From Stappia sp. ES.058 (lineage in GTDB: Bacteria > Pseudomonadota > Alphaproteobacteria > Rhizobiales > Stappiaceae), in assembly GCF_900105595.1 (NCBI RefSeq), contig NZ_LT629784.1:3162001-3226000 (forward strand): a DNA stretch of 64,000 nt. Reading direction: 5' to 3'. The first letter of the stretch is position 1. Each line of letters begins with the position of its first letter. This document shows positions 2,532 through 19,300 of the stretch, one piece after another. The position numbers and the translations under genes were made by a program. The notes under the pieces are model-generated. The model ran no database searches. It was not told the origin of the DNA and saw nothing but the letters and a program-made list of their open reading frames with translations.

Positions 2532-3167
2532 TCAGCCGGCGTTGCCGACGGGCTCTGACCGCGCGCCCACGGCAGCGCTCACGAGCAGCGCCACGGCGAG
2601 CATCCCCGGGTCGTCGTTGCCGATTGAACGGGCCTCATGGATTCGGGCGCGCCCGACGCGGCAGGGCAGCGCCCGAAACGCCTCCAGCGCCGCCTCCGTG
2701 GCGGCCATCGACCGCTGCGTCAGGTCGGATCGCGAAACGGCGCCGGCGGTCCCCGCCTCGAGGCTTGCCAGACTGTCAATCACGGTCTTTGCGCCTTCTC
2801 CGGTCCCGGATCGCGCCATCATTTCCTTGCGGGCCACCCCGACAAGCTCGGCCACGTCGCCTGGCGCGATGCTGTCGCAATCCTTCGTTGCCCGGCCCGA
2901 CGCCATCAGCGCGGCAATGATCAAGGTGCCGAAACTCGATCCCGTGGAGCGGGCCGCCGCCTTCGCGAGCTGCAGGAGGTATGCCCCGACCGACACGGAC
3001 GGCTCAGCAGGCTGGTTGGCCATGACGCCGATCAGGCGCGCCAGCATCGTGCCGGTATCCCCGTCTCCGAGATGGGAATCCGCCTCGTTCAGACGGCGCT
3101 CCAGCGGATCGATCCCGGCCTGAATGCGGACAATGGCGGCGCTGATGTCCTGCGCTGTGATCTCCAT
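2532..3167 (-). CDS. dhaL: DhaL subunit of a dihydroxyacetone-kinase-like enzyme
   Basis: ADP/ATP-binding subunit that supplies the phosphate for the keto-substrate subunit encoded just upstream. The protein is 211 residues, normal for DhaL. The metal-nucleotide motif DSHLGDGDTG (residues 30-39) gives the three Mg-binding aspartates D30, D35 and D37. STGSSFGTL and KTVIDSL match the nucleotide-binding loops. I chose the ATG at 3167 because the dhaK stop lies one base upstream, in a TGA-C-ATG arrangement that implies translational coupling; a longer frame to 3233 would run into dhaK. No phosphotransfer protein DhaM is seen nearby, so an ATP-dependent kinase is more likely than a PTS-dependent one. 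That is an inference. Confidence 0.9.
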   Translation of the reverse strand: MEITAQDISAAIVRIQAGIDPLERRLNEADSHLGDGDTGTMLARLIGVMANQPAEPSVSVGAYLLQLAKAAARSTGSSFGTLIIAALMASGRATKDCDSIAPGDVAELVGVARKEMMARSGTGEGAKTVIDSLASLEAGTAGAVSRSDLTQRSMAATEAALEAFRALPCRVGRARIHEARSIGNDDPGMLAVALLVSAAVGARSEPVGNAG

Positions 3168-3168
3168 G

Positions 3169-4167
3169 TCAGGACACCGTCCAGAACGGGCAAGTCGCCG
3201 GCGCGGCGAGCATCGTGTCGAGCTCCTCATCAAGGAAGCACAGGCTCACCGAGGCCCCGGCCATCTCCATCGAGGTCACGAACGGCCCGACCATGACCCG
3301 CGCCACATCGATGCCGCGCGCGCTCAGGAGCGTTCGAACGCTGCGATGGAGAATGAAAAGCTCCTCATAGGGAGAAGCTCCGAGGCTGTTGACCAGCAGG
3401 GCCACCCGCGAGGACGCTTCCGAGACCTTTTCAGCCATGAGCTTGTCGACCATCTCCGAGGCAATCGCATCCGCCGAGGAAAACGGCTGGCGCCAAAGAC
3501 CCGGCTCGCCGTGAATGCCCATGCCGAACTCGACGGTTCCGGATGCGACCTCGAAGGCAGGCGCATCGCGCCCCGGCATCAGGCAGGGTGCCAGCGCAAA
3601 GCCGATCGTCCGCGTGCGGTCCACGGCCTTGCGGGCGATGCGGGCCACCTCTTCCAGGTCCCGTCCCTCTTCCGCGGCCGCGCCCGCACATTTGTAGGCG
3701 AACAAAAGCCCCGCGACGCCACGGCGTTTCTCCATCTGGTCTTCCGGAGCGCTGGCGACATCGTCGGTGCCGAGAACGAGTTCGCTCCGGATGCCATCGT
3801 CTTCGGCCATCGAGCCCGCCATCTCGAAATTCATGCGGTCGCCGCCGTAGTTTCCGATCAGGCAGAGCACACCTGCTCCGGTATCGGCATGCAGGATACT
3901 GTCGAGCGACGTGCCGACGGTCGGTCCTTCGAAGACATTGCCGACGGCGCAGGCATCGAGTAGCCCCTCTCCGACATACCCGCAAAACAACGGCAGATGC
4001 CCGAACCCTCCCCCGGAGGCGATCCCGACCTTGCCGGCGGACTTTGCGCGGCCGCGCACCACGACGCGGCCTTCGTCGCCGACGATCCGGAGCGAAGGAT
4101 GAGCGAGACACAGGCCCTCGAGGCTTTCGTCCACATAATCTGCGGACGCGTTGATGATCTTGGTCAT
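3169..4167 (-). CDS. dhaK: DhaK subunit of a dihydroxyacetone-kinase-like enzyme, variant substrate loop
   Basis: Ketose-binding subunit that phosphorylates dihydroxyacetone or a related ketose; the substrate is held covalently on a histidine. The protein is 332 residues. H219 in GIHGEPG matches the covalent histidine. H57 and D110 (in NYGGDRMNF) match the catalytic pair of DhaK. The usual SGGGSGHEP loop reads SGGGFGHLP here (residues 51-59), so Ser and Glu next to the active site are replaced by Phe and Leu. This suggests a substrate other than free dihydroxyacetone. The ATG at 4167 has AAGGAGAT upstream. The next gene, dhaL, starts one base past the stop. Related kinases act on erythrulose, but I cannot assign that here. 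Confidence 0.88.
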   Translation of the reverse strand: MTKIINASADYVDESLEGLCLAHPSLRIVGDEGRVVVRGRAKSAGKVGIASGGGFGHLPLFCGYVGEGLLDACAVGNVFEGPTVGTSLDSILHADTGAGVLCLIGNYGGDRMNFEMAGSMAEDDGIRSELVLGTDDVASAPEDQMEKRRGVAGLLFAYKCAGAAAEEGRDLEEVARIARKAVDRTRTIGFALAPCLMPGRDAPAFEVASGTVEFGMGIHGEPGLWRQPFSSADAIASEMVDKLMAEKVSEASSRVALLVNSLGASPYEELFILHRSVRTLLSARGIDVARVMVGPFVTSMEMAGASVSLCFLDEELDTMLAAPATCPFWTVS

Positions 4168-4204: not shown

Positions 4205-5491
4205 TCACAGCAGCCCCAGGGCGCGCGGCAGGGCGAGAACGGTTTCCGGCACGTAGGTGATGATGAGCAGCACGAACACAGCCGCGCAGAAGAACGGGAA
4301 GATGTTCCGGACGATCCGCTCGATCGGCATGCCCAGGACAATGGAACCGGTGAAAAGGGCCGTTCCGTAAGGCGGCGTTATCAGGCCGATCACCAGGTTG
4401 AAGGTGCAGATCACCCCGAAATGAACCGGGTCGACCCCGATCTCGGTGGCCAACGGCAAGAGGATCGGGATGACGATGAAGATCGCCGGCAACATGTCCA
4501 TCACCATTCCCCACAAAAGCAGGAACACCATGATGATGAGGAGGATGAGCATCGGATCGTCCGTGAACGAGAACACCAGCGTGGCGATCTGCGCCGGGAC
4601 CTGCTCCGTGGCGAGGATCCATGAGAAAACATTCGCCGCGCCGGTGAGAAGCAACACCGCGCCCGACAAGGTGCCGCTGCGCAGCAGGATCAGAAAGAGT
4701 TCGCGCGGATCGGGGCGACCCTTGCGCTCGATCAGCCAGAGGCCGAACCCCCAGGCGACAGCGGCGGCGGAGGCTTCAGTGGGCGTGAAGACGCCCGACA
4801 GGATTCCACCCAGAATGATGACCGGCATCATCAGGAACGGAACCGATTCAATCACGACCTTCAGCTTTTCCCGCCGGCTGAGCGGTTCGCTCTTGGCGAG
4901 CACGGTATGACGCGTCGTCCAGAACACCGCGACGGCAAGCGTGATCCCGACCAGCAATCCGGGAACCAGTCCGCCGATCAGCATTCCGCCGATCGAGGTG
5001 CCGGAGACGGCGCCGACGAGAACCAGCGGGATCGAGGGCGGAATGATAGCCCCCTTGATCGAGGTCGCGATGGTCAGTGCGGCGCTGAACTCGCGGGTGA
5101 AACCGCTCTTTTCCATCATGCGCACCTGCGTGCGTCCAAGGGCGGCGATGTCGGCGATGGCCGATCCCGAACAGCCGCCGAACAACATGCTGGCGACGAT
5201 GTTCACATATCCGGTACCGCCCTTGAGCCGCCCGACAAGAAGCTGGGCAAACCGCAACAGCCTGTCCGCCGTGCCCGAGGCCACCATCAGGTCGCCGGCC
5301 AGCATGAAGAAGGGGATCGCCATGATGGTGAAGATGTCGAGACCACTGAAAAGCTGTTGAATGAGCAATGTCAGCGAATTTCCCGACATGACGAGATAGA
5401 GCGCACAGGCGAGAAGCATCGAAAAGGCGAGCGGAAAGCTCAGCGCAACGAGGGCCACGAAGCACAGCAGCATGGCGACGAAGGGGCTCAT
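4205..5491 (-). CDS. TRAP transporter large permease (DctM type)
   Basis: The 12-helix membrane subunit of a sodium-driven tripartite ATP-independent periplasmic importer. It has 428 residues, hydrophobic throughout, with features of the DctM family: MLFGGCSGSAIADIAALG, a GAIIPPSIPLVLVG loop, GVFTPTEASAAAV and NLVIGLITPPYGTALF. The start at 5491 overlaps the stop of the small permease gene in an ATGA, so the two are translated together. A longer frame to 5917 is a shadow of the small permease. It lies between the small permease and dhaK in one operon, so the imported compound probably feeds the kinase or the oxidase of the same operon. TRAP systems usually carry carboxylates or sugar acids. 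Confidence 0.93.
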   Translation of the reverse strand: MSPFVAMLLCFVALVALSFPLAFSMLLACALYLVMSGNSLTLLIQQLFSGLDIFTIMAIPFFMLAGDLMVASGTADRLLRFAQLLVGRLKGGTGYVNIVASMLFGGCSGSAIADIAALGRTQVRMMEKSGFTREFSAALTIATSIKGAIIPPSIPLVLVGAVSGTSIGGMLIGGLVPGLLVGITLAVAVFWTTRHTVLAKSEPLSRREKLKVVIESVPFLMMPVIILGGILSGVFTPTEASAAAVAWGFGLWLIERKGRPDPRELFLILLRSGTLSGAVLLLTGAANVFSWILATEQVPAQIATLVFSFTDDPMLILLIIMVFLLLWGMVMDMLPAIFIVIPILLPLATEIGVDPVHFGVICTFNLVIGLITPPYGTALFTGSIVLGMPIERIVRNIFPFFCAAVFVLLIITYVPETVLALPRALGLL

Positions 5492-6018
5492 TGTTTCGCC
5501 TCCGCGGGAAGGTCGTCGCCACCCATGATCATGAACCGGCTCGGGAAGAATTGCGCGGCCATGACGTGCAGAAGAAGAAGAACGCCGCCGACGGGGATGA
5601 TCGCGAAGACCCAGTAGTAGCGGATGCGCAAGGCCGGCGTGCGCATGATGCCGTCGAAGGAGAAGAACTCGTAGCCGTAGACGATGAAGATGATCGAGAC
5701 GAGAACGAGTCCGAGGTTGATGAGCGCGCGCACAAGCGCTTTCGCGCCGCCGGGCAAGATCTCGAACAGCAGGGACAGGCGCGGATGCTGGTTGGCGCGC
5801 AACGCCGTGGAGGCTCCCAGAAACGCCATGTAGATCATGGCGTAGCGCGCGACTTCCTCGCCCCAGAACACCGACAGCCCGAAGAAGTACCGGCCCGCCA
5901 CGAGGTAGAGTACGCAAGCGAACATCACGAGAAGCGATGCCGCCACCATGACGCCGGTGGCGAGTTGCAGCGCCTGGTCAGCGCGACGGCAAACCGTTTT
6001 CAAACGTTTGGGAAACAT
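5488..6018 (-). CDS. TRAP transporter small permease (DctQ type)
   Basis: Four-helix membrane subunit that joins the periplasmic binding protein to the large permease. It has 176 residues. Hydrophobic segments lie at about residues 20-42, 55-70, 92-115 and 133-155, and the family motif WGEEVARYAMIYMAFLGAS is present, followed by a conserved R-x-N-x-H region (LRANQHPRLSL). It overlaps the large permease gene by four bases (ATGA) and follows the binding-protein gene by 68 bases. Function is assigned from family and gene order; the substrate is unknown. Confidence 0.9.
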   Translation of the reverse strand: MFPKRLKTVCRRADQALQLATGVMVAASLLVMFACVLYLVAGRYFFGLSVFWGEEVARYAMIYMAFLGASTALRANQHPRLSLLFEILPGGAKALVRALINLGLVLVSIIFIVYGYEFFSFDGIMRTPALRIRYYWVFAIIPVGGVLLLLHVMAAQFFPSRFMIMGGDDLPAEAKQ

Positions 6019-6086: not shown

Positions 6087-7112
6087 TTAGAATTTGCCGT
6101 CGAACTCCGCCATGTGGGCGAAGAAGTCACTCACGAACGCCTCGCCGAAGTTCTCTTCCGCCCAGGCCCGCGTCGGGCCAGAAACGGCCTCGCGGAACAT
6201 CGCTACCTCCTCGGGGGACGGCGTGTAGACCTCGACACCCTTGTCCCGGATCTTGGCGACGGAAAGCATGTCCTGAACCGCGCCCGTTCCGTCATAGGCG
6301 AGCATGGCTTCCTCGCCGGCGTGGAGGATCGCGGTGCGCTCGTCATCCGAAAGCCCCTGGAACCATGCCTCGTTGGTGATGAAGGCCGCCGTCGTCATCA
6401 CGTGCTGGGTTTCGCTCATGTAGCCCTGCACCTGATCGAAGTTCTGGATGACGATATTGGCCGGTGTGTTCTCCTGACCGTCGACCACCCCGGTCTGCAG
6501 GCTGGTGTAGAGCTCGAGGAAGGGGATCGGCACCGGCGTGGCACCAAGGGACTCCATCATCTTCTGGTGCGGCACGACGCTCATGGTCCGCATCTTGAGA
6601 CCGTCGAGATCCGCAGGGCCCTTCACCAGGGTCGAACTCGTCGTCATGTTGCGGAAACCGTAGGGCTGCAGGAACAGGATTCGCACGCCGGTCTCTTCGG
6701 CGACATCGTCCATCAGCTTGGAAATGAAGGGCGTATCGGCATCCATCGCCGCGCGAAAATGCGAACGCGACGCAAAGAGATAGGGCATGTCGAGCACGCT
6801 CAGCCGCTCGTAGAGCAGCGACGCAACGACGCCGGACACCACATTGGCGAACTGGATGTCACCGCGACGAACCTGCTGGACGGTCGCCGCCTGATCCCCG
6901 AGTTGCCCGTTGGGGAACAACTCGACATCGAATTCTCCGCCCGAGAAGCGTTCGAGCGAGGCCTCGAAGACCTGCATGAAGGCCGAGGTCGGCGCGATCT
7001 GGGCATCGTTGGGGTCGGCCCAGGCCGCGCGCACGGTCTGTTCGGCTGACGCCTGGGGGACCGCAAGCCCCATGACAAGCGCCAGGGCGGCACCGGTTGC
7101 GAACTTTCTCAT
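6087..7112 (-). CDS. TRAP transporter periplasmic substrate-binding protein (DctP type)
   Basis: Secreted binding protein of the TRAP importer encoded by the next two genes. It has 341 residues with a signal peptide of about 23 residues ending ASA. The DctP fold is shown by DLDGLKMRTMSV, whose arginine normally forms the salt bridge to a substrate carboxylate, and by PFLELYTSLQTGVVDGQENT. This supports a ligand with a carboxylate group. It follows the FAD-oxidase gene by 65 bases on the same strand. A GGGAGGAAATGAG Shine-Dalgarno region precedes the ATG. Confidence 0.93.
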   Translation of the reverse strand: MRKFATGAALALVMGLAVPQASAEQTVRAAWADPNDAQIAPTSAFMQVFEASLERFSGGEFDVELFPNGQLGDQAATVQQVRRGDIQFANVVSGVVASLLYERLSVLDMPYLFASRSHFRAAMDADTPFISKLMDDVAEETGVRILFLQPYGFRNMTTSSTLVKGPADLDGLKMRTMSVVPHQKMMESLGATPVPIPFLELYTSLQTGVVDGQENTPANIVIQNFDQVQGYMSETQHVMTTAAFITNEAWFQGLSDDERTAILHAGEEAMLAYDGTGAVQDMLSVAKIRDKGVEVYTPSPEEVAMFREAVSGPTRAWAEENFGEAFVSDFFAHMAEFDGKF

Positions 7113-7177: not shown

Positions 7178-8578
7178 TCACCCCGGGAAGATCTTTCCCG
7201 GGTTCATCAGGGATGCCGGATCGAGCGCGGCCTTGACCGCTCGCATGACCGCGAGCGCGTCGCCGTGTTGCCGGTCCAGCAGATGTCGTTTGTGCAGGCC
7301 AATGCCGTGCTCGCCGGAGCAAGCCCCGTCCAGCTCGATGGCCAACATCGAAACGCGCTCGCAAAGCGCCTCGGCACGGGCGGTCTCCTTCGGATCTTCC
7401 GGATCGAACAGAATGCCGAGGTGGAAATTGCCGTCGCCGACGTGGCCGACGAGCGGCGCCGTCAACCCCGCCTCGTCGATAAAGCGCTTGGTTGCCAGGA
7501 TGCAGTCGGCAAGACGGTCGAGCGGCACGCAGGCATCGGTGCCCATGTTCTTCTTGCCCGGCGCAAGCGCCAGCGCCGCCTCGTAGCAGCGCTCACGCGC
7601 GCCCCAGTAGAGCGAGTGGATCTCCGGCGTGTCGAAATAATCGGGCGATACGCCAGCCTCCTCCCGGCAGATCGCGGCAAACTCCCCGGCCCTGCGACGC
7701 ACGTCCGCCTCGTCACCGGCGAACTCGAACATGATCGTGTTGGTTTCCCGCAGCGCGTCGAGCCGGGAATAGCGGGCACAGGCGCCGGTCTGCACGGCGT
7801 CGAGCAACTCGATCCGCGACGGCTCGAGCCCATGCAGCAATGCCTGGGAAATGACCGCAAGGGCTGCGGAAAGGTCATCGATCTGGCAGATCCCGGAAAG
7901 CTGGAACGACGGCCGCGGAGCCAGCTTCAGCGTGACTTCGGTAACGATGCCGAGCGTTCCCTCCGCGCCGACGAACAGGCTGGTGAGGTCATAGCCTGTT
8001 GCGGACTTGCGGGCCCGGCTTCCCGTGCGGATCACCCGACCGTCCGGCATTACGACCTTCAGGGCGATGACGTTGTCCTTCATCGTTCCGTAGCGCACCG
8101 CCTGCGTTCCGGACGCACGGGTCGAGACCATACCGCCGATAGTGGCATCGGCCCCCGGGTCGATCGGGAAGAACAAGCCGGTGTTCCGCAGATGGGCGTT
8201 GAGGTCTTTGCGCGTCACGCCGGCCTCGACGGTGCAGTCCAGGGCTTCCGACGACACATCCACGATCCGGTTCATTTGCGACAGGTCGAGAACGACACCG
8301 CCGGCGACCGGCACGACCTGCCCTTCCAGCGAAGTCCCGGCGCCGCGACAGGTGACCGGCACACCGGCGGACGCTACAACGGACATCACGGCGGCCACTT
8401 CGTCGGTGCGGCGCGGCGAAACCACAACATCCGGAATTCGGGAAAACGGCATCCCCTCGCCGCTGGAATACTGGGCGCAGACGGATGGCCGCCGTTCGAC
8501 CGAGAGACCCAAGATCTGACCGAGATCCTCGCAGAGACGCTCAAGTGCCTTGTCCGTATACGGCGCATCCGCCTGCAT
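7178..8578 (-). CDS. FAD-binding oxidase, D-lactate dehydrogenase (cytochrome)/glycolate oxidase GlcD type
   Basis: Flavoprotein that oxidises a D-2-hydroxy acid to the 2-oxo acid and passes electrons to the respiratory chain or an acceptor. The 466 residues show the PCMH FAD-binding domain: PDVVVSPRRTDEVAAVM, then CRGAGTSLEGQ, then DPGADATIGGMVST and LFVGAEGTLGIVTEV. A C-terminal substrate domain contains GHVGDGNFHLGILFD and GEHGIG, and the protein ends MNPGKIFPG. It is the first gene of the minus-strand run that continues with TRAP, dhaKL and the aldehyde dehydrogenase. A candidate operator lies 79 bases upstream at 8657-8673. The substrate is probably a hydroxy acid taken up by one of the two transporters, by inference. 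Confidence 0.9.
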   Translation of the reverse strand: MQADAPYTDKALERLCEDLGQILGLSVERRPSVCAQYSSGEGMPFSRIPDVVVSPRRTDEVAAVMSVVASAGVPVTCRGAGTSLEGQVVPVAGGVVLDLSQMNRIVDVSSEALDCTVEAGVTRKDLNAHLRNTGLFFPIDPGADATIGGMVSTRASGTQAVRYGTMKDNVIALKVVMPDGRVIRTGSRARKSATGYDLTSLFVGAEGTLGIVTEVTLKLAPRPSFQLSGICQIDDLSAALAVISQALLHGLEPSRIELLDAVQTGACARYSRLDALRETNTIMFEFAGDEADVRRRAGEFAAICREEAGVSPDYFDTPEIHSLYWGARERCYEAALALAPGKKNMGTDACVPLDRLADCILATKRFIDEAGLTAPLVGHVGDGNFHLGILFDPEDPKETARAEALCERVSMLAIELDGACSGEHGIGLHKRHLLDRQHGDALAVMRAVKAALDPASLMNPGKIFPG

Positions 8579-8994
8579 TTACCCCTCCAGATCGCCGCAC
8601 GAATGAACCCGGAAAAAGCGGATCGGCTCCATCATGATCGGGACGCCAATCAACTTATTCCATAATGCGGGCCAGAAAATCATTTAAAATTCCTTTTTGC
8701 AAGGATAACTCGGCAAATTAGGCAAAAAATACGTATTTTTGTGAGAGCAATGGACAAATTAATCCATATAGTGGAAATTGAATTGAAAAGTAGCATTCCA
8801 AGGCATCCGCAACCAGACACACAGAGACGGGTCGGCGGCTCCTCAGATTTACAAGACCACCGCGCGAAACTAGGTTTTGCGTAAACTGTCAGGGACAGCA
8901 TGACGACAATGGTGCAAGCAGCGACACCCAGCCAGATCTCGGCCCCTGCCACGGGCGCAAACGCGAGACGCGGCCAAGTCACGAACGATGCGAC
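8579..8994. promoter_or_regulatory. Divergent control region between the oxidase operon and the IclR gene
   Basis: This 416-base gap is much more AT-rich than its surroundings between about 8675 and 8800. It contains the shared element at 8657-8673 (see separate entry), a perfect 16-bp palindrome AAAAATACGTATTTTT at 8725-8740, and TGGACAAATTAATCCA at 8751-8766, a TGGA...TCCA dyad with an AATT core. Another TGGAAATT follows at 8772-8779. TGGAAAT-type arms are known from IclR-family sites. I see no convincing gene here. An open frame on the minus strand at 8680-8982 has no coding character. Confidence 0.5.
8657..8673. promoter_or_regulatory. Candidate regulon operator, copy 1 (ATTCCATAATGCGGGCC)
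   Basis: Matches the 15-base pattern ATYCCRYAATRYGGG shared with 10835 and 11009; ten positions are identical in all three and the rest differ only by transitions. It sits 79 bases before the start of the oxidase operon. Confidence 0.55.
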
Positions 8995-9813
8995 ATGAAG
9001 AAAACGACCCCGGAAGAAGGCATCAAGTCACTTCACAAGGTAATGCGTGTTCTCGACTGTTTCTCGATCCTTGATGACGTCCTTTCGGTCAGCGAGATCG
9101 CCAGTCGTCTGAACATTCCACCAAGCACCGCGCACCGGCTGTTGTCGTCCATGCGCTCGGCCGATTTGCTGGAACAGGACAAGCGCCGCGGCGGCTACCG
9201 GCTTGGCCTGAAACTCTTCAGCCTTGGCAGCACGGTTCTCGGAAGCATGGACATCCACCGCATTTCCGTCGATGCAATGGAAGAGCTCCACCGCATCACC
9301 CGCATGTCGGTTCACCTCGCGGTTTTCGATGGCGAAGGCGTGCTGGTCGTGCGCAAGATCGGCTCGGCAAAGGAACTCTCCACATCGCTGAACCTCATGG
9401 AACGCGCACCGGCACATTGCACCGGAGTCGGAAAGGCGGTCCTCGCCTACCAGCCGAGCGAAGCGATCGACCGCGTATTCGCGGGCGAGGTCACCCGGTT
9501 CACGCCCTCCACGATCGTTGAACGGAGCACCTTCGATCGCGAGCTGGCAACGATTGCCGAGCGCGGCTACTCCATCGACGATCAGGAACACAACATCGGG
9601 ATCCGCTGCGTCGCGGTGCCGATCTTCAACGAAGCAGGCAAGGCCTTCGCCGCCATCAGCGTCAGCGGCACAGCCTGGGAACTCACCCCCGGTGCCGTCG
9701 AGGAGATCGCAAAGACAGTGAAGCTCCACGCCGGCGCCCTCTCGGCGAAACTCGGCTACACCGGAAAGACCGACCCGGCCCCCTCCGGCAGGAAAGGCAG
9801 GGCGCCGGCCTGA
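8995..9813 (+). CDS. IclR-family transcriptional regulator
   Basis: Small-molecule-responsive regulator, probably the local controller of the flanking catabolic genes. The 272 residues comprise an N-terminal winged helix-turn-helix (about 10-75, with LSVSEIASRLNIPPSTAHRL as recognition region) and a C-terminal IclR effector domain. The latter shows the family motifs GKAVLAY, RGYSIDDQEHNIGIRCVAVPIF and AAISVSG. It is transcribed away from the oxidase operon and converges on the DapA-family gene. Its ATG at 8995 has only a weak Shine-Dalgarno. The repeated element found before the three neighbouring structural units is the natural candidate for its binding site; this is inference from position. 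Confidence 0.92.
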   Translation: MKKTTPEEGIKSLHKVMRVLDCFSILDDVLSVSEIASRLNIPPSTAHRLLSSMRSADLLEQDKRRGGYRLGLKLFSLGSTVLGSMDIHRISVDAMEELHRITRMSVHLAVFDGEGVLVVRKIGSAKELSTSLNLMERAPAHCTGVGKAVLAYQPSEAIDRVFAGEVTRFTPSTIVERSTFDRELATIAERGYSIDDQEHNIGIRCVAVPIFNEAGKAFAAISVSGTAWELTPGAVEEIAKTVKLHAGALSAKLGYTGKTDPAPSGRKGRAPA

Positions 9814-9834
9814 CACGACCGTCGCCCTGCGCGA

Positions 9835-10767
9835 TCACGCGGCCGGCGCCGCTTTCCGGGCGAGGTCGAGCAACGGCTCGACCGCCGCATCGATGGCGGC
9901 CTTCTGCGCCGCAGACACCGGATCCATCGGCGCACGCGGCCCATAAAGCGCAAGACCCTGCCGGTGCTGGATATACTTCACGCAGGCCGGCAGATTGTCG
10001 TGCGGCATGACGTTCCACAATTCGTTCAACTTGAAGTGCATGTCGAGCGCGGCTGCGTGATCGCCGCGCTGAACCGCATCATAGAGCTGAACGGTCACGC
10101 TCGGCAGGGCGCAGGTGAGCGCACTGATCGCCCCATGAGCTCCCAGGGCGAAACCGGAATACAGCAGCGCGTCGATGCCGCTGGTTACAACATTCTCCGG
10201 CTTGGCCTTCAGCAGGAGATCGGACACAGACTTCAGATCGCCGGAACTCTGCTTCATTCCCACAACGCCGGGAACCTCGTCCATGATCTGCAACATCGCG
10301 TCGACGCTGAGATAGTTCCAGGGAATGACGTTGTAGATCAGAATCGGGATGCCGGTTTCCTCGTAGATCGCCCGGAAATGCGCCACGGTGGCCTCGAACG
10401 AGGACTTGAAGAGATAATGCGCAGGCGTCACCTGCAGCGCGTCAATGGAAAGCCCGTCGAGCATGCGCATGCGCTCGACAGCCGCACGCGTCGAATTCAC
10501 GATCAACCCGGCAACGAAGCTGGTACGGCCCGCCAGCGCATCATGCGCCGCACGCATGGCCGTCGCGAACTCTTGATCGGAAAGCGTATGCCCCTCGCCG
10601 GTCGACCCACCCGCGACAACGCCGCTCACGCCGGCCCGCACCATGAAATCGATCTGCGGCGCCAGCGCCTCGGGGACCAGCGCTCCCGTGTCGTCGAACG
10701 GCATGGACAAGGGCGGCATGATGCCCGTTAGCTTGTCCCGTACCGATGCAGCGATTTTATTGACCAT
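9835..10767 (-). CDS. Dihydrodipicolinate synthase (DapA)-family aldolase or dehydratase
   Basis: Class I Schiff-base enzyme of the DapA/NanA superfamily, 310 residues. Catalytic parts are visible: K172 in GVVGMKQSSGD (Schiff base), Y145 in ILIYNVIPWN, and the GGSTGEGHTLS loop at residues 53-63 that binds the 2-oxo acid carboxylate. Members act as 2-keto-3-deoxy acid aldolases, as 2-keto-3-deoxy-pentonate or -glucarate dehydratases giving 2-oxoglutarate semialdehyde, or as hydroxy-oxoglutarate aldolases. The nearby semialdehyde dehydrogenase favours a dehydratase role; this is inference. The ATG at 10767 is chosen for its CGGAGGGA Shine-Dalgarno; a start at 10818 is possible. A copy of the shared operator lies 68 bases upstream. 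A biosynthetic DapA is unlikely in this setting. Confidence 0.85.
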   Translation of the reverse strand: MVNKIAASVRDKLTGIMPPLSMPFDDTGALVPEALAPQIDFMVRAGVSGVVAGGSTGEGHTLSDQEFATAMRAAHDALAGRTSFVAGLIVNSTRAAVERMRMLDGLSIDALQVTPAHYLFKSSFEATVAHFRAIYEETGIPILIYNVIPWNYLSVDAMLQIMDEVPGVVGMKQSSGDLKSVSDLLLKAKPENVVTSGIDALLYSGFALGAHGAISALTCALPSVTVQLYDAVQRGDHAAALDMHFKLNELWNVMPHDNLPACVKYIQHRQGLALYGPRAPMDPVSAAQKAAIDAAVEPLLDLARKAAPAA

Positions 10768-10834
10768 CCGTCCCTCCGAGTTACAGCGATAGGCGCCCGG
10801 CAAACTCCTTGCCGCCACCTCGCCAAATCATCTT

Positions 10835-10851
10835 ATCCCACAATACGGGGA
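10835..10851. promoter_or_regulatory. Candidate regulon operator, copy 2 (ATCCCACAATACGGGGA)
   Basis: Second copy of the ATYCCRYAATRYGGG element. It lies 68 bases upstream of the DapA-family gene, which is on the minus strand. Confidence 0.55.
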
Positions 10852-11008
10852 AAAAGACCTTTGTTCTTCGTATACCTGGGCTAGACACCTGTCAATTGCC
10901 GGCGGCAATATCAGCTTTCACAACATAAAAAACTAAATTATTCCTTTTATATCAGCATAATAAACATTCACCGGACATGATGCTTGCATCGACATGTCAT
11001 CACTGTTA

Positions 11009-11025
11009 ATTCCGTAATATGGGAT
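11009..11025. promoter_or_regulatory. Candidate regulon operator, copy 3 (ATTCCGTAATATGGGAT)
   Basis: Third and most symmetric copy: around the central base, six of eight pairs are complementary. It lies 71 bases upstream of tctC and overlaps a possible -10 box. Confidence 0.6.
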
Positions 11026-11095
11026 TTCATGGAACGATGAAAGCCCATGCCAACGACGATGGAGGATCGTCGAACAGGGAGCCTGGAGGAGACCC

Positions 11096-12061
11096 ATGAG
11101 AACCGCACTCACGACCGCACTGGCCGTTTTCGGCCTCGCAGCCGCATCCGCAACAGCGCTTGCCGATTTTCCGGACCGTCCGGTAACCGTGATCGTGCCC
11201 TGGTCGGCAGGCGGCGGCACCGACGCCACCGGGCGGATCATCGCGACGATGCTGGAGGAAAGGCTCGGCCAGCCGTTCAATGTCGTCAACCGGACCGGCG
11301 GCGGCGGCATCGTCGGGCACACGGCCATCAAGGACGCAAACCCGGACGGATATACGATTGGCATTCTTACGACGGAACTCTCGATGTACGAGGCCGTCGG
11401 CTCCGCCAATCTCAATGCCACCGACTATTCCCTCGTCGGTCTCTACAATTCCGACCCGTCCGCAGTCTTCGTGAAGGCAGACTCCGATTTTCAGACCATC
11501 GCCGACCTTGCCAAGGCCGTGAAGGCCGATCCGCAGGCGATCCAGGCGAGCGGTGCCAACTTCGGCGGCGTGAACCACCTGTCGTGGGTGTCGATGGTTC
11601 AGGGGCTTGGTCTCGACGGCGCCGCGAGCAGCTGGGTGCCCGCCGAAGGCGGAGCGCCTGCACTTCAACTCCTGGCGTCGGGCGCGATCGACGTCGCCGT
11701 CGTCCAGTTTCCCGAAGCACAGGCCCTGATGGACGCCGGGGAGATCCGTGCCCTCGCGACGCTTGGCAGCGCGCCCAATCCCAAGCACCCCGATGTTCCT
11801 CCCGTGACCGACGCGCTCGGGATCGAATTCTCGATTGCGGGCTGGCGCGGTGTGGGGGGCCCGGCTGGCATGCCCGAAGACATCACCGCCACACTGACCT
11901 CCGAACTGGGGGAAATCGTCGCCAGCGACGCCTTCCGCGACCAGATGGGCGCACTCAATTACGGTGTCGTCTGGGCGGGCGGAGCGGACTTCGCCGACTA
12001 TCTCGAGCGCCGTGGCAAAGCATTCGGAGCGGCGATTTCCGCTGCCGGTCTTGGCAAATAG
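11096..12061 (+). CDS. tctC: Tripartite tricarboxylate transporter periplasmic binding protein (TctC/Bug type)
   Basis: Secreted solute-binding protein of a TTT importer, 321 residues. A signal peptide of about 22 residues ends ALA. Mature sequence begins DFPDRPVTVIVPWSAGGGTD, the hallmark of the Bug family, followed by VNRTGGGGIVGH and a VTDALG region. Ligands of the family are mostly carboxylates. The start is supported by CTGGAGGAGACCC upstream. The gene is first of a TctC-TctB-TctA set with gaps of 43 and 1 bases. The shared operator 71 bases upstream ties it to the oxidase/TRAP operon. Confidence 0.93.
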   Translation: MRTALTTALAVFGLAAASATALADFPDRPVTVIVPWSAGGGTDATGRIIATMLEERLGQPFNVVNRTGGGGIVGHTAIKDANPDGYTIGILTTELSMYEAVGSANLNATDYSLVGLYNSDPSAVFVKADSDFQTIADLAKAVKADPQAIQASGANFGGVNHLSWVSMVQGLGLDGAASSWVPAEGGAPALQLLASGAIDVAVVQFPEAQALMDAGEIRALATLGSAPNPKHPDVPPVTDALGIEFSIAGWRGVGGPAGMPEDITATLTSELGEIVASDAFRDQMGALNYGVVWAGGADFADYLERRGKAFGAAISAAGLGK

Positions 12062-12104: not shown

Positions 12105-12578
12105 ATGCGCATTGGGCACACGGCGGACTTGGTCATCGGACTGGCATTCGCCGGTCTCGGATCGGCCATCTTCATGGTGGCCAGCGGGTTTCGCACCTTC
12201 CCCGGCATGGCGGTGAGTTCGGGGCTTTTCCCCAAGATCACCGGGACGGGAATGATCGTCTTCGGCATCGTGATGGCTCTTGCGGCGGCGCGCGCAGCGC
12301 GCCGCCAAACCCTCGCCCCCCACTCCGGCCAGGACGCCGGCGAACAAGCCCTTCCAACGCGTTATGCAATGACGGTCGTCGTCGCCCTCCTGGTCCTGAT
12401 CTTCGCCATGCCCATTATCGGTTTCCTTGCAAGCGGCTTTGTGTTTTCCGCATTCCTGGTACGACTTGGCGGCGGCCGTTGGCCGGGCGCTCTCGCCTTT
12501 GCGCTCCTGGCCACCATCGCCGTGTACATCGTGTTCACCTACGGACTGCGCGTTCCCCTGCCAAGAGGGCCATTTTGA
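12105..12578 (+). CDS. tctB: Tripartite tricarboxylate transporter small membrane subunit (TctB type)
   Basis: Four-helix membrane subunit of the TTT importer, 157 residues. Hydrophobic segments lie at roughly 8-28, 38-60, 85-112 and 118-145. The small size, low motif content and position between TctC and TctA are typical. The stop codon is separated by one base from the ATG of tctA, so the two are probably coupled. Confidence 0.88.
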   Translation: MRIGHTADLVIGLAFAGLGSAIFMVASGFRTFPGMAVSSGLFPKITGTGMIVFGIVMALAAARAARRQTLAPHSGQDAGEQALPTRYAMTVVVALLVLIFAMPIIGFLASGFVFSAFLVRLGGGRWPGALAFALLATIAVYIVFTYGLRVPLPRGPF

Positions 12579-12579
12579 G

Positions 12580-14082
12580 ATGATGGACGCACTCGCGCTT
12601 GCGGCAGGGCTGGTCTTCAACGCAGAGACCCTGACCGTCATTTTCCTCGCCTCCGCCTTCGGGCTGTTCGTAGGCGCCATGCCCGGCCTGACCGCTACGA
12701 TGGCGGCAGCACTCCTGGTTCCGCTCACCTTCTACATGGACCCGGTCCCCGCGATTGCGGCCATCATCTCCTGTACGGCAATGGCAATCACTGCGGGCGA
12801 TATCCCCGGCGCACTGCTGCGGATCCCGGGCACGCCGGCCTCTGCCGCATATGTCGAGGACGCCTATGGGCTGACCCGAAAGGGCAGGGCAGGGTTCGCC
12901 ATCGGGATCAGCATCTGCGCGGCCACCTTCGGCGGATTGTTCGGCTTCGCGACGCTTCTTGTCGCGGCACCGTTTCTGGCCCGCTTCGCGCTCAATTTTT
13001 CCAGCTTCGAATATTTCTGGCTGTCGATTCTCGGTCTGAGTTGCGCCGTTGTCGTCTCCCATGGCGGGGTGGCGAAGGGCATGCTGTCGCTTCTGCTCGG
13101 GCTGTTCATCGCCCAGATCGGGCTCGATCCCCTGATGGGCCAGCCCCGTTTCACCTTCGGCATTGCCGAGCTTTCCGGAGGCATCAGCTTCATTCCGGCA
13201 ATGATCGGAATGTTCGCCCTCGCCGAAATCCTGCGCAATGGCCGCGAGGGGCCGTCATCCGTGCCGCAGGTCGAGGTCGCAAACCCTTTCGCCGGTGTCG
13301 GGGCGGCGCTCAGCCGCTACCGGCTCAACCTGTTTCGCGGCGCGGCCGTCGGCTCGATCATCGGCGCGCTTCCTGGTATTGGCGGCGATCTGGGTGCCTG
13401 GATCACCTATTCGCTCGCCAAACGAACCTCGAAGGAACCGGAAAAATTCGGCACGGGTCATCCGGAGGGCCTCGTCGAGGCGGGCGCGTCCAACAATGCC
13501 GCCCTGTCCTCATCCTGGATCCCGGCAATGGTCTTCGGGATCCCGGGCGATGCCGTCACCGCGATCGCGGTCGGCGTGCTCTTCATGAAGGGTATGCAGC
13601 CCGGACCGCAGCTTCTGACAATCAATCCACAGAACTTCTACGCCGTGCTGCTTGTCTTCGTTCTGGCGAACCTGCTGCTGATCCCCTTCGGCTATCTGGC
13701 CGCCAGACTTGCGCGCAATCTCTTCAAGGTGCCGCGAAGCTACCTGAACGCTGCGATCCTGCTGTTTTGCGTGGTCGGCTCCTATTCGATCAACAACACG
13801 CTTTTCGGCGTGGGCATCATGCTTGGCCTCGGCGTGATCGCCTATTTCCTGCAATCGCGTGATTTTGCCATCGCCCCCATCATCCTGGGCATTGTTCTCG
13901 GTCCCCTCGTGGAACAGAGTTTCACCACATCCATGACCATCGCGCGCGGCGACCTCTGGGGCTTCTTCGAGCGCCCGATCGCCGCGGCACTGGGGATCGT
14001 GACCCTCCTGATATGGCTGGGCCTCGCAGCCGGGGCGATCCTGATCAAGAAACCGCCGTCCGACACCCTATCAAGCCGATAG
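12580..14082 (+). CDS. tctA: Tripartite tricarboxylate transporter large membrane subunit (TctA type)
   Basis: Main transport subunit, 500 residues, the normal length for TctA. It shows both copies of the characteristic proline-glycine loop: GLFVGAMPGLTATMAAALL near the start, and GALPGIGGDLGAWITY with VFGIPGDAVTAIAVG in the middle. I take ATG 12580, one base after the tctB stop; a second ATG at 12583 is equally possible. The gene ends just before a patch of IS debris at 14.13 kb, but its C-terminus (KKPPSDTLSSR) looks complete. Confidence 0.93.
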   Translation: MMDALALAAGLVFNAETLTVIFLASAFGLFVGAMPGLTATMAAALLVPLTFYMDPVPAIAAIISCTAMAITAGDIPGALLRIPGTPASAAYVEDAYGLTRKGRAGFAIGISICAATFGGLFGFATLLVAAPFLARFALNFSSFEYFWLSILGLSCAVVVSHGGVAKGMLSLLLGLFIAQIGLDPLMGQPRFTFGIAELSGGISFIPAMIGMFALAEILRNGREGPSSVPQVEVANPFAGVGAALSRYRLNLFRGAAVGSIIGALPGIGGDLGAWITYSLAKRTSKEPEKFGTGHPEGLVEAGASNNAALSSSWIPAMVFGIPGDAVTAIAVGVLFMKGMQPGPQLLTINPQNFYAVLLVFVLANLLLIPFGYLAARLARNLFKVPRSYLNAAILLFCVVGSYSINNTLFGVGIMLGLGVIAYFLQSRDFAIAPIILGIVLGPLVEQSFTTSMTIARGDLWGFFERPIAAALGIVTLLIWLGLAAGAILIKKPPSDTLSSR

Positions 14083-15337: not shown

Positions 15338-16189
15338 GTGATTGCATGTGTCGCCCCTGCCTATCCTTCCATTTGCGGACCCTCCATGTCCCTCGATCTG
15401 CCAAGCCTCGATAAAGTCTATGCGCTCTGGGATGGCCTTGCCGACTTCGATGCCGTCAACATCCAGGCCTCTCGCATGTATTTGCTCGAACAGATCAGCA
15501 CCCTGGTGGATGCCCAGAATGCGGACTGGATCGGCTGCGTGCGGCTGAGCTGGAGCCAGGCCGACGACCCGATGAAGGGATGGCGCCCGCGGACACTGTC
15601 CACCCTGAAGCCTTGCGCCAACACCAGCCAGGCGATCGACGAGGCCTTCCAGGAAATGGAGAAGGGCCAGCCGGACATCACCACCATCCGAAACGTGGAA
15701 CTGGCTGGCAGCTACAGGGTGCTGCTCTTGAACGAACTGGCGAACCCGGACTGGTTCGCGGGGCCGTCCTACCAGCGCTACTACAAGGCCCTGGACCGGC
15801 AGGATTCCATCTGGGCAGGCATCCCCGTGAGCGCAAATGCGGAAGTGCAGATCGGCTTCCATCGCAGCTTCGACAAGACGCCGTTCTCCCGCGAGGACAA
15901 GGCACTGGTCTTTCATGCGTTGCGCGGGATCCGCTGGTTCTACAAGCACCAGCTGCTGGGCGAAGGTGTCGGAGTCGCGTCGTCTCCGCTGACGCCCACG
16001 GAAAAGACGGTGCTGCAGGGGCTCCTGTTCGGCATGACCGAGAAGCAGATTGCCGGCCAGAACAACCAGAGCCCGCACACCACCCACGACCACGTGAAGC
16101 GGATCTTCCGCAAATACGGGGTTTCCAGCCGGTCCAGCCTGATGGCTCTCTGGCTCGGCAAGGGTCTGATATCGAACAATAACCCCTAA
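15338..16189 (+). CDS. LuxR-type (GerE helix-turn-helix) transcriptional regulator
   Basis: DNA-binding regulator, 283 residues from a GTG start. A C-terminal LuxR helix-turn-helix spans about residues 213-275: LTPTEKTVLQGLLFGMTEKQ, then HTTHDHVKRIFRKYGVSSR. The N-terminal 200 residues are a GAF/PAS-like sensor I cannot identify. The autoinducer-domain motifs of quorum-sensing LuxR proteins are not evident and no luxI is present. Start choice is open: GTG 15338 has GGGGAA upstream, while ATG 15386 begins MSLDLPSLDKVYALWDG. The large autotransporter gene follows on the same strand after 134 bases and is its most likely target, by position only. Confidence 0.8.
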   Translation: MIACVAPAYPSICGPSMSLDLPSLDKVYALWDGLADFDAVNIQASRMYLLEQISTLVDAQNADWIGCVRLSWSQADDPMKGWRPRTLSTLKPCANTSQAIDEAFQEMEKGQPDITTIRNVELAGSYRVLLLNELANPDWFAGPSYQRYYKALDRQDSIWAGIPVSANAEVQIGFHRSFDKTPFSREDKALVFHALRGIRWFYKHQLLGEGVGVASSPLTPTEKTVLQGLLFGMTEKQIAGQNNQSPHTTHDHVKRIFRKYGVSSRSSLMALWLGKGLISNNNP

Positions 16190-16323
16190 ACAGGGGATTC
16201 AACTCCCTCCCCCTCCGGCGCCATAAGCAGTTTGCGAAAATGCCCTGCGCCGCAGGAGAGCCATGCCGGTTTTCCTGCGGCGCGCCGTCACATGACCTGA
16301 CGGTTCGGCTCGAGGGGAAAACC

Positions 16324-19300
16324 ATGGCCATGATCGACACCACGTCTCTCGCGCCTTTCGACGCGGCACATGAAACGTCGAGCCGTGCAACGAGGCCTGG
16401 AACGTGCACCGGCGAAAGCCGCCGGAAGGCCCGCCGAGCAAGCCCCGCGCGTCGGCGCGTCCTCTCCCTTCTCGCCTCGACGGCCCTGTGCGCCGCGTCG
16501 CTCATGACCTTGTCCGTCGAGACGGTACAGGCGGCGACCTATGCGGTCACAAAGGCAACGGATGACGGAAGCGGAACGGTCGCAGGGTCGCTGAGTTGGG
16601 CAATTGCGAATGCCTCGTCGGACGGCGACGTGATCGAGATCGATCCCGGCATCGCGAACATTGCCGTCACTGGAACATTGCCCGCCTTTGCGGCAAACGT
16701 CACGGTTCGGGCGAGCGCCGCGGTGGAGATCACCGGTTCGCCATTCGCGGCGTCGGGCACGTCGCTGGTCCTGTCAGGTGAATCCTCCACGAACGCACTC
16801 GCCGCCGCCCTGACGGGCGCCGTAGCCGGCGAGGACGGGAACAACGGTGCCGACGGAGCTCCGGGCGCAGAAGGCTCGGTGGGAACCGCGGGAACGACAG
16901 CGCTTTCGGGAAGCGATGCCAAACTGGAGAACACTGGCACGATCACGGGCGGAAGCGGCGGCAACGGCGGCGACGGCGGCGACGATGTAGGTGAAGGTGG
17001 CAATGGCGGAAATGGCGGCACGGGTGGCGCGGGCATTGCGGGCACGGGCCTTACCATTGCAAACAGTGGAACGATCCGCGGGGGTGACGGCGGTCACGGA
17101 GGCGAAGGTGGTGTCGCCTCTTTTTTCGGCACCCGCGGGGCCAAAGGGAGCGAAGGTGTTGGGGGGGCCGGTATCACGGGCTCAGACCTGACAATCATCA
17201 ACAGCGGCACGATTGCCGGCGGGCTCTCTGGCGACGGCGTCCGCGCCACTGCAATCGAATTCACCTCGGGCACCAACACACTGGAGCTACGATCCGGTTC
17301 AACGATCACCGGCAATGTCGTAGCGGGTGGCGGGAGCGACACACTTGTCCTGGGAGGAGATACCAGCCCTGGCGCGAGCTTCGATCTGGGCGATATCGGC
17401 ACCAAATACACCGGCTTTGAAGCCATGTCGAAGACAGGCAGCTCCACCTGGACCATGACCGGCACAGCCGGTGCCGCGCTTGGAGACCTGACGGTTTCAG
17501 GCGGCTCGCTCAACCTCGACGGGGCAACGGCGACAGCCAATCTGCTCACCGTGAATGGCGGCACGCTGATTGTCTCCGGCACCCGGATCAATGTCGTCAA
17601 CAGCATCAACCTCGGCCTGGATAGTGGCCAGAGCACTCTGACCGTGGCGAATTTGGCCCAGTTTGTGTCAGCTTCGCCCACCTATATGGCGCGAGATGGC
17701 GGCACCGCGACGCTGAACATCGGCGCAGCGGCCGGTGAAGCCGCAGCAGAAGCCGGCTTCTTCTCCTCCGGTCTGCTTGTCTTCGGAGCGGGCGACGGAA
17801 CCGTCGTGTTCAACCATACAAACAGCGCACTTTTCTTTACCAACGACATAAGCGGCAAGGGAACGATCGAGGCCCACGCCGGCACCACGATCCTGACCGG
17901 CAACAACTCCGCCTTCACCGGCTCGACAATAATGAACGGCGGCACGCTGCGTGCCGGGGGCGCGGATGCCTTTGCCGACAACACCCACTACGAGATCAAC
18001 GGCGGAACCCTCGACCTCGGCGGCCATGATCTTACGATGTCGCGGCTGTGGGGAAGCGGCGGCACGCTGACCAGCACCGGCTCTGAAGCGGACCTGATCC
18101 TGGGTCAGGACGACGTTACCCGCTTTTCCGGCGAAGTCTCCGGCTTGCGCAACCTTACGAAAACGGGCTTTGGAACCGTGTTTCTGCGCGGCAACACAGC
18201 CGTTTCCGGCACGATCGGCGTCGACGAGGGCGTTCTCAGCTTCGGCGGCGGCAAGACCATAACGAGCGGGCGTGGGGCAGCTACCGCGGCCGGCACAAGG
18301 GATGCCGAATTCGAGATTTCCGGTGCAGGAACGCTGTGGACCATCGGCTCGGACCTGCGGCTCGGCGACACCGGCGGCAGCGGAAACGGCAACCTGTGGA
18401 TCTGGGACAAGGCCGTGGTCAGCGCCGCGAGCCTGCACATGGGCGATGGCGGCAAGGCCCAAGCCGAGGTCACGGATGCGGGATCCGTTCTGACCGTGAC
18501 CGGCCCCGCCGAGATCGGCGTTTCCTCTGGCGGGAGCGCTGCCATGGTGCTGTCCAACGGTGGACGTCTCGTCGTCGGCGGTGGAACCGGAACGGTGAAC
18601 CTTGCCGCAGGCGCAGGCGCCTCCGGTATGCTGGTGATCGGCGCAGAGACCGGCCAGACACCGGTTTCCGCCGGAACGCTCGAGGCGCAGACGGTTGCTT
18701 TCGGCGCAGGCGATGGCAGCATCGTCTTCAATCACATGAACACGGCCTATGACTTCAAAGCCGACGTGACCGGCGACGGCACCCTCGCCTTCCGAAACGG
18801 CGAGACGCTGCTCTCGGGTGACTATTCCGGCTTCACCGGCTCGGCCGAGATCTACCGCACCGGCGCGGCACGGCTGCAGTCGAACTTCGCCGGCGACGTC
18901 GGCCTGCACTCGGGAACCGTCTACACGCTCGACACCACGCTTGCCGGCAGCTTCACCGTCAATGACGGCGCCGTGCTCAAGGGGCAAGGCACGATCGGCG
19001 GTCTTTCGCTCGCCTCGGGCGGAACGCTTGCGCCCGGCAACTCGATCGGGACCATCAATGTGGCCGGCGACCTCTCCTTCGGTCCGGGAAGCATCTATGA
19101 GGTGGAGGTGGACGACACCGGCGGAAGCGACCTGACGACGGCGACTGGACGCATCGACCTGACCGGCGGAACGGTCAATGTTTCGCTGCTAAGCGGGGCC
19201 ACACCGCCCCTTTCTCCGTCGACCAGCTACACGATCCTCACCGGCACAGGCGGCGTCTTCGGATCTTTCGACAGCGTCACGGAAAGCTTCGCCTTCCTCG

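Follow-up and report, generated by a model that had tools for sequence, protein, structure and literature searches.

What joins the genes around an IclR-family regulator in the marine bacterium Stappia sp. ES.058 is the question raised by the present window, a stretch of 64,000 nucleotides (contig NZ_LT629784.1, positions 3,162,001 to 3,226,000). Its genes run in the order oxidase-DctP-DctQ-DctM-DhaK-DhaL-aldehyde dehydrogenase on the minus strand, iclR on the plus strand, dapA on the minus strand and tctC-tctB-tctA on the plus strand. A sequence-only reading of this DNA had proposed that a shared 15-base-pair (bp) element marks three of these transcription units as one regulon. According to the follow-up analysis, the IclR protein encoded at 8995-9813 probably binds copies of a palindrome, ATYCCRYWWWRYGGRAT, placing the oxidase-TRAP-DhaKL-aldehyde dehydrogenase operon, dapA, tctCBA and possibly iclR itself in one regulon, which is most likely repressed. 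Whichever the sign of regulation, this IclR protein is very likely the one to which the sites belong.

The three 15-mers reported in the earlier reading are present on the plus strand at 8657-8671, 10835-10849 and 11009-11023. They had been described as partly palindromic; the palindromy is confirmed, and, as read from the letters, the full element is a 17-bp palindrome in at least four copies, a further site at 8761-8777 having been overlooked when three were counted. The four predicted operators, for which no strand is given, are the following:

8657 to 8673: operator A, ATTCCATAATGCGGGCC, 78 bases ahead of the oxidase start (8578)
8761 to 8777: operator B, AATCCATATAGTGGAAA, in the gap that separates the oxidase operon from iclR, 104 bp away from A
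10835 to 10851: operator C, ATCCCACAATACGGGGA, 67 bases ahead of the dapA start (10767)
11009 to 11025: operator D, ATTCCGTAATATGGGAT, an exact 17-bp match whose 17-mer ends 70 bases ahead of the tctC start (11096)

The distances from the three 15-mers to the start codons, claimed earlier to be constant, are similar, the exact values being 78, 67 and 72 and not 79, 68 and 71. Relative to the 17-mer WTTCCRYWWWRYGGAAW, B (8761) and D (11009) each carry 1 mismatch, and A (8657) and C (10835) each carry 3; a scan of the window with WTTCCRYWWWRYGGAAW finds two places, 8761 and 11009, with no more than one mismatch, while five places, 8657 and 10835 among them, have 3 mismatches.

In the 4.63 Mb genome, a single contig, the degenerate pattern of the three 15-mers, WTYCCRYAATRYGGG, has three exact matches, all inside 2.4 kb of this cluster. 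Because WTYCCRYAATRYGGG was derived from these sites, this count is circular, and the weight of evidence therefore lies in conservation, which was tested separately. At one mismatch, WTYCCRYAATRYGGG occurs at 11 places elsewhere in the genome; 10 of them, all except that at genome position 3876570, fall inside a mechanically called open reading frame (ORF) of at least 100 amino acids, and for this reason no distant regulon member is claimed, although ORF location is weak evidence in this genome because site D itself lies in a mechanical ORF (162 codons). At up to two mismatches there are 136 + 121 matches, compared with 72 + 62 for a reversed control pattern; loose matches are so abundant that the matrix alone cannot find genome-wide regulon members at low stringency. 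The possibility that the matrix matches at random across the genome is thus answered in part, exact matches being confined to the cluster and loose ones being widespread.

Six near loci were compared, namely the window's own, that of S. stellulata (L062), and those of the metagenome-assembled genome (MAG) SP118 (L063), a Roseitalea MAG (L064), a Roseibium MAG (L065) and Boseongicola H5 (L066); the IclR proteins of L062-L066 are 74-93% identical to that of the window. Sites A, C and D recur at no more than two mismatches to the 17-mer in all six, and B does so in five, with 4 mismatches in the Roseibium MAG. In the own locus and then L062 to L066, A and B are spaced, start to start, by 104, 104, 104, 102, 103 and 104 bp, and C and D by 174, 174, 174, 179, 163 and 155 bp. 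When the three Stappia-type loci are set against the other three, identity over A and B is 65% versus 33% in the rest of the oxidase/iclR intergenic region, and identity over C and D is 68% versus 42% in the rest of the dapA/tctC intergenic region. The most conserved 17-column stretches of the oxidase/iclR region fall on A and the next at B; in the dapA/tctC region, the ribosome-binding region of tctC is the most conserved and D comes second. A close IclR gene was found in 3 of 14 genomes of the genus (own included) and in 4 of 87 of the family (E up to 1e-50), and the IclR gene is therefore accessory.

Further away, the best 80 of 569 loci from a scan of named genomes comprise 5 near loci, 47 with an IclR protein 38-52% identical (the distant loci, L067-L112 and L129) and 28 with one 33-39% identical. 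The 15-mer was sought on both strands in at most 300 bases preceding those cluster genes that had a placeable start, with the bodies of cluster genes excluded, so that 28.5 kb of upstream sequence was tested in the 47 distant loci, the remainder amounting to 787 kb. At 0, 1 and 2 mismatches, the distant loci hold 5, 28 and 75 matches in 4, 23 and 34 loci, counts in which one palindromic site may score on both strands; 40 shuffles give means of 0, 0 and 1.1, the remaining 787 kb holds 0, 13 and 36, and the 28 loci with the 33-39% identical IclR hold 0, 1 and 2. Similarly, the 17-mer at up to two mismatches gives 44 sites in 32 of the 47 loci, with a shuffled mean of 0.5 and 22 sites in the other 787 kb. 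Sites with no mismatch to WTTCCRYWWWRYGGAAW are present in two Devosia loci (L070 and L075) and one Rhizobiales locus (L080), and most Devosia-type loci have the arrangement TctCBA-DapA-DhaKL-IclR with a single site between tctC and dapA. Conservation upstream of orthologous genes, on which the earlier reading had staked its claim, is therefore borne out, by the footprint in the six near loci and by the site in 32 of the 47 with a 38-52% identical IclR. Chance similarity, or a recent duplication of intergenic DNA, has next to no probability as the source of the four copies: the window shows no enrichment at 3 mismatches, and the flanks of A (8648-8656) and C (10826-10834) are alike at 8 of 9 bases outside the palindrome (AATCAACTT, AATCATCTT), which could hint at copying, but this likeness is weaker in relatives, the sites persist in near loci and distant families, and no shuffled match occurs at one mismatch or fewer. 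At the levels tested, in the 15-mer and 17-mer searches of distant loci against shuffles, it is refuted.

The regulator at 8995-9813 scores 51.2 bits against PF09339 (cut-off 22) and 135.8 bits against PF01614 (cut-off 24), and it belongs to the IclR family. The NCBIfam models BhcR, PcaR/PcaU/PobR, KdgR, AllR and IclR match nearly the whole protein, with BhcR at the top (186.7 bits, curated cut-off 350); the protein falls under every one of these curated cut-offs and is therefore none of these named types. It has been reported by Suvorova and Gelfand (2021, PMC8222616) that subgroup WTT-11-AAW of IclR group 1 recognizes a 17-bp odd palindrome, WTTYCRYW3RYGRAAW, that most group 1 sites are centred between -20 and -80 relative to the start of the gene, that certain helix-turn-helix residues of this group are correlated (e.g., Lys30, Thr5 and Glu26), and that IclR regulons are mostly small and often include transporters, tetramer binding also being described. 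The window element fits the group 1 consensus, with the core TTYCRY-W3-RYGRAA and the WTT-11-AAW pattern, and differs from it in that position 3 is C or T with A or G as its partner (TYCC...GGRA) and in that the right arm of A and C ends in GGGCC or GGGGA. In Salinivirga fredricksonii, an IclR-family regulator, GalR, occurs with a TTT (tripartite tricarboxylate transporter) proposed for D-galactonate (PMC5507952); in both loci a regulator of the IclR type neighbours a TTT importer, there one with a sugar acid as its proposed substrate, whereas the GalR locus has dgoK of the DeLey-Doudoroff route and the window has dapA-family, dhaKL and oxidase genes. The gene control proposed here is of a known, conventional kind. 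A literature search for this gene combination found no description of it in titles and abstract openings; subscription journals, RegPrecise and supplements (including the regulon tables of PMC8222616) lay outside its scope.

Among the 47 distant loci, where starts could be placed, a site stands upstream of dapA in 26 of 43 cases, iclR in 19 of 46, tctC in 10 of 22 and dctP in 1 of 4, and in none of 6 each for dhaK and for the gene of the aldehyde dehydrogenase. The number of dhaK genes that qualified is small, as the query ORF extends too far at its start. Autoregulation of iclR is possible. Of the proposal that one regulon covers three transcription units, the part concerning dapA and tctC finds sites in near and distant loci, while membership of the oxidase operon is drawn from the six near ones. 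The presence of the site also clusters on the IclR tree, with 13 changes compared with a mean of 27.2 when shuffled and none of 500 shuffles as low, a clustering to which near-copies add and for which eight translations in the tree had stop signs written as X. We infer binding by the IclR protein because the published consensus fits and because the sites co-distribute with the IclR gene.

This deduction leaves some room for another regulator, global or encoded elsewhere, that would bind the sites with iclR merely adjacent, an explanation that we regard as improbable. It is helped by the 15 of 47 distant IclR loci that lack a site and by the similarity of motifs among IclR proteins, through which a paralogue could bind; in addition, no close dapA known to lack an adjacent IclR gene, which would have served as a control, was found in 150 genomes of the order, where the two other genomes with a close dapA both have the site (one of them, G141, with or without an IclR gene beside it). 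A global regulator, however, should have other sites, and there are no exact matches elsewhere in the genome; moreover, the site clusters on the IclR tree and precedes iclR itself in the distant loci as counted above. Still less credible is a core-promoter or sigma-factor element lying at a constant distance from the starts, for which the similar distance to three start codons and the presence of TATAAT in some orthologous sites (e.g., at 12024 in L064) could be cited: the palindrome fits an IclR consensus, its exact matches are restricted to the cluster, site B is separated from each of the two starts by some 190 bases or more, and the TCC...GG arms are constant while the centre varies.

Several findings weigh against a single, repressed IclR regulon or limit the evidence for it. 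With up to 3 mismatches allowed, the window holds 27 matches, which is no enrichment over the shuffled mean of 22.59 (standard deviation 5.51). ATYCCRYWWWRYGGRAT at up to two mismatches has 33 places in the own genome versus 10 for the reversed control, four of them being A, B, C and D and D being the sole perfect match, and this pattern was composed after the distant loci had been seen, so that the count is not an independent test; of the 29 other places, 9 were inspected, and each falls within a mechanical ORF 100 or more amino acids long. Site C is only 40th of 312 windows by conservation, the weakest footprint by this measure. At up to two mismatches, 15 of the 47 distant loci have no site, the best site of the Devosia locus L084 has 3 mismatches, and two Azospirillum loci (L091 and L093) carry DapA, DhaKL, oxidase and TRAP genes, with DctP and DctM in place of the TTT importer, yet have no site, the operator there having perhaps changed. 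For glcD, which could be tested in 11 distant loci, no nearby site was found. The 28 more distant loci likewise show an excess of the 17-mer (7 sites in 6 loci, compared with 0.35 on average after shuffling), and the motif is therefore partly family-wide. Some IclR proteins activate instead of repressing. A sigma-70 promoter scan of 8560-11120 found none (shuffles mean 1.1), because of which we infer the following promoter positions by eye from the alignment:

10890 to 10895, minus strand: candidate -35 of dapA, TTGACA, the same in all six near loci
10867 to 10872, minus strand: candidate -10 of dapA, TACGAA, 17 bases on and not invariant
10984 to 10989, no strand given: candidate -35 of tctC, TTGCAT, in which TTGC is invariant
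11007 to 11012, no strand given: candidate -10 of tctC, TAATTC, in which TAAT is invariant, after a 17-base spacer

With these candidates, transcription of dapA would start near 10860, operator C would lie just downstream of that start, and operator D would overlap the -10 of tctC. A protein bound at either site would block RNA polymerase, and these positions would therefore favour a repressor. It is unlikely, though it deserves some weight, that the same IclR protein acts at these sites as an activator or dual regulator. The reality and IclR-like form of the sites suit such a role as well, the IclR family includes activators, PcaU and PobR being activator or dual regulators, and site B, which precedes the oxidase start by about 190 bases, is in a position open to an activator; A, C and D, on the other hand, lie 67-78 bases from start codons, and C and D fall at or downstream of the -10 elements proposed by eye for dapA and tctC. 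As a separate observation, the segment 8846-8881 upstream of iclR, GATTTACAAGACCACCGCGCGAAACTAGGTTTTGCG, is near-constant in the three Stappia-type loci and not recognizable in the other three near loci; TTTACA and TAGGTT, 17 bases apart within it, could be the promoter of iclR.

Under repression by the IclR protein, a dimer (or tetramer) would bind the 17-bp palindrome ATYCCRYWWWRYGGRAT, one tetramer might bridge operators A and B, which are about ten helical turns apart, and the repressor would be released by a substrate or an intermediate. An organic or sugar acid would be imported via the TRAP and/or TTT system; after import, a 2-hydroxy acid would be oxidized, the DapA-family enzyme would carry out a cleavage, a triose- or tetrose-like product would be phosphorylated by DhaKL, and an aldehyde would be oxidized, the cluster genes presumably forming one pathway. 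The genes concerned are as follows:

7178 to 8578, minus strand: oxidase/dehydrogenase for 2-hydroxy acids, linked to flavin adenine dinucleotide (FAD) and GlcD/D-lactate dehydrogenase-like, first gene of the operon (Pfam/NCBIfam profiles, solved-structure comparison)
6087 to 7112, minus strand: DctP, TRAP solute receptor (Pfam/NCBIfam profiles, solved-structure comparison)
5488 to 6018, minus strand: DctQ, TRAP small permease (profile match)
4205 to 5491, minus strand: DctM, TRAP large permease (ORF listed to 5917, start set by comparison with locus L061)
3169 to 4167, minus strand: kinase subunit of the DhaK type (the listed ORF reaches 4341; start taken from the profile match)
2532 to 3233, minus strand: DhaL-type kinase subunit (Pfam/NCBIfam profiles)
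1044 to 2495, minus strand: aldehyde dehydrogenase (profiles; nearest solved structure 3v4c, 'Aldehyde dehydrogenase (NADP+)', 683 bits)
8995 to 9813, plus strand: IclR-family regulator with HTH_IclR and IclR_C, the proposed operator binder (Pfam/NCBIfam profiles)
9835 to 10767, minus strand: DapA-family (DHDPS/NAL superfamily) lyase or dehydratase (Pfam DHDPS, 166.2 bits)
11096 to 12061, plus strand: TctC, TTT receptor (profile match, solved-structure comparison)
12105 to 12578, plus strand: TctB (profile match)
12427 to 14082, plus strand: TctA (coordinates of the listed ORF; translation probably begins just past tctB)

The names given to these genes earlier (oxidase, TRAP, TTT, DapA family, split kinase, here DhaK/DhaL, aldehyde dehydrogenase and IclR) agree with Pfam and NCBIfam, and a split DhaK/DhaL kinase pair is a common arrangement. 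The nearest solved structure of the oxidase is a 'probable D-lactate dehydrogenase, mitochondrial' (388 bits); solved-structure comparison of the cluster proteins points to families only and to no substrate. The DapA-family protein, a member of the DHDPS/NAL superfamily, carries GGSTGEG, IYNVIP and GMKQSSGD in its translation, in which we take GSTGE to be the pyruvate-binding motif and recognize the catalytic Tyr and Schiff-base Lys of the class; since these are kept, pyruvate-type chemistry is likely for this predicted enzyme.

The importers vary around a core of IclR and DapA, often with DhaKL, which would fit a single pathway. For instance, Azospirillum oleiclasticum (L067, IclR 52% identical) carries almost the same genes, both importers included, with DctPQM, oxidase, DapA, DhaKL, TctC, TctA and IclR lying in one stretch, with sites at 2 mismatches between dapA and dhaK and ahead of iclR. 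More tentatively, the IclR orthologous group may mark an undescribed catabolic pathway that is widespread in Alphaproteobacteria and extends to Erwiniaceae, in which a DapA-family lyase would feed DhaKL, TRAP and TTT importers would be interchangeable or joint under one regulator, and a tetramer of IclR would bridge A and B at the main operon. The gene list would thereby become one testable unit, with two importers and four enzyme functions answering the same compound; as even distant families have a recognizable operator, the regulon offers a way to seek the substrate via reporter induction and to decide whether a dapA- or dhaKL-like gene of another genome shares the pathway. Twenty further ORFs chosen from six distant loci gave no clue to the substrate: 10 encode components of transporters, three have no family match, and among the others are an FAA hydrolase, two FAD oxidoreductases and an RraA-like aldolase.

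Some smaller observations concern these and neighbouring loci. Extra palindromic sites lie away from the orthologues of the window's genes at L069:14510, L068:15303 and L109:10801; those in L069 and L068 are near the 5' end of an ORF for an FAD oxidoreductase, with an ABC ATPase gene, beside dapA, and may extend the regulon in these two loci. In the Roseitalea MAG (L064), two palindromes of the form ATTTC...GAAAT, or nearly so, lie 21 bp apart at 3141 and 3162, between dhaL and a second gene of the IclR type, which is located at about 1029 and is 30% identical, and resemble the tandem IclR sites described in PMC8222616. Near the tct operon of the window there is an ORF for a LuxR-type regulator with a GerE domain (15338-16189), followed by an ORF of 1409 codons (16240-20469).

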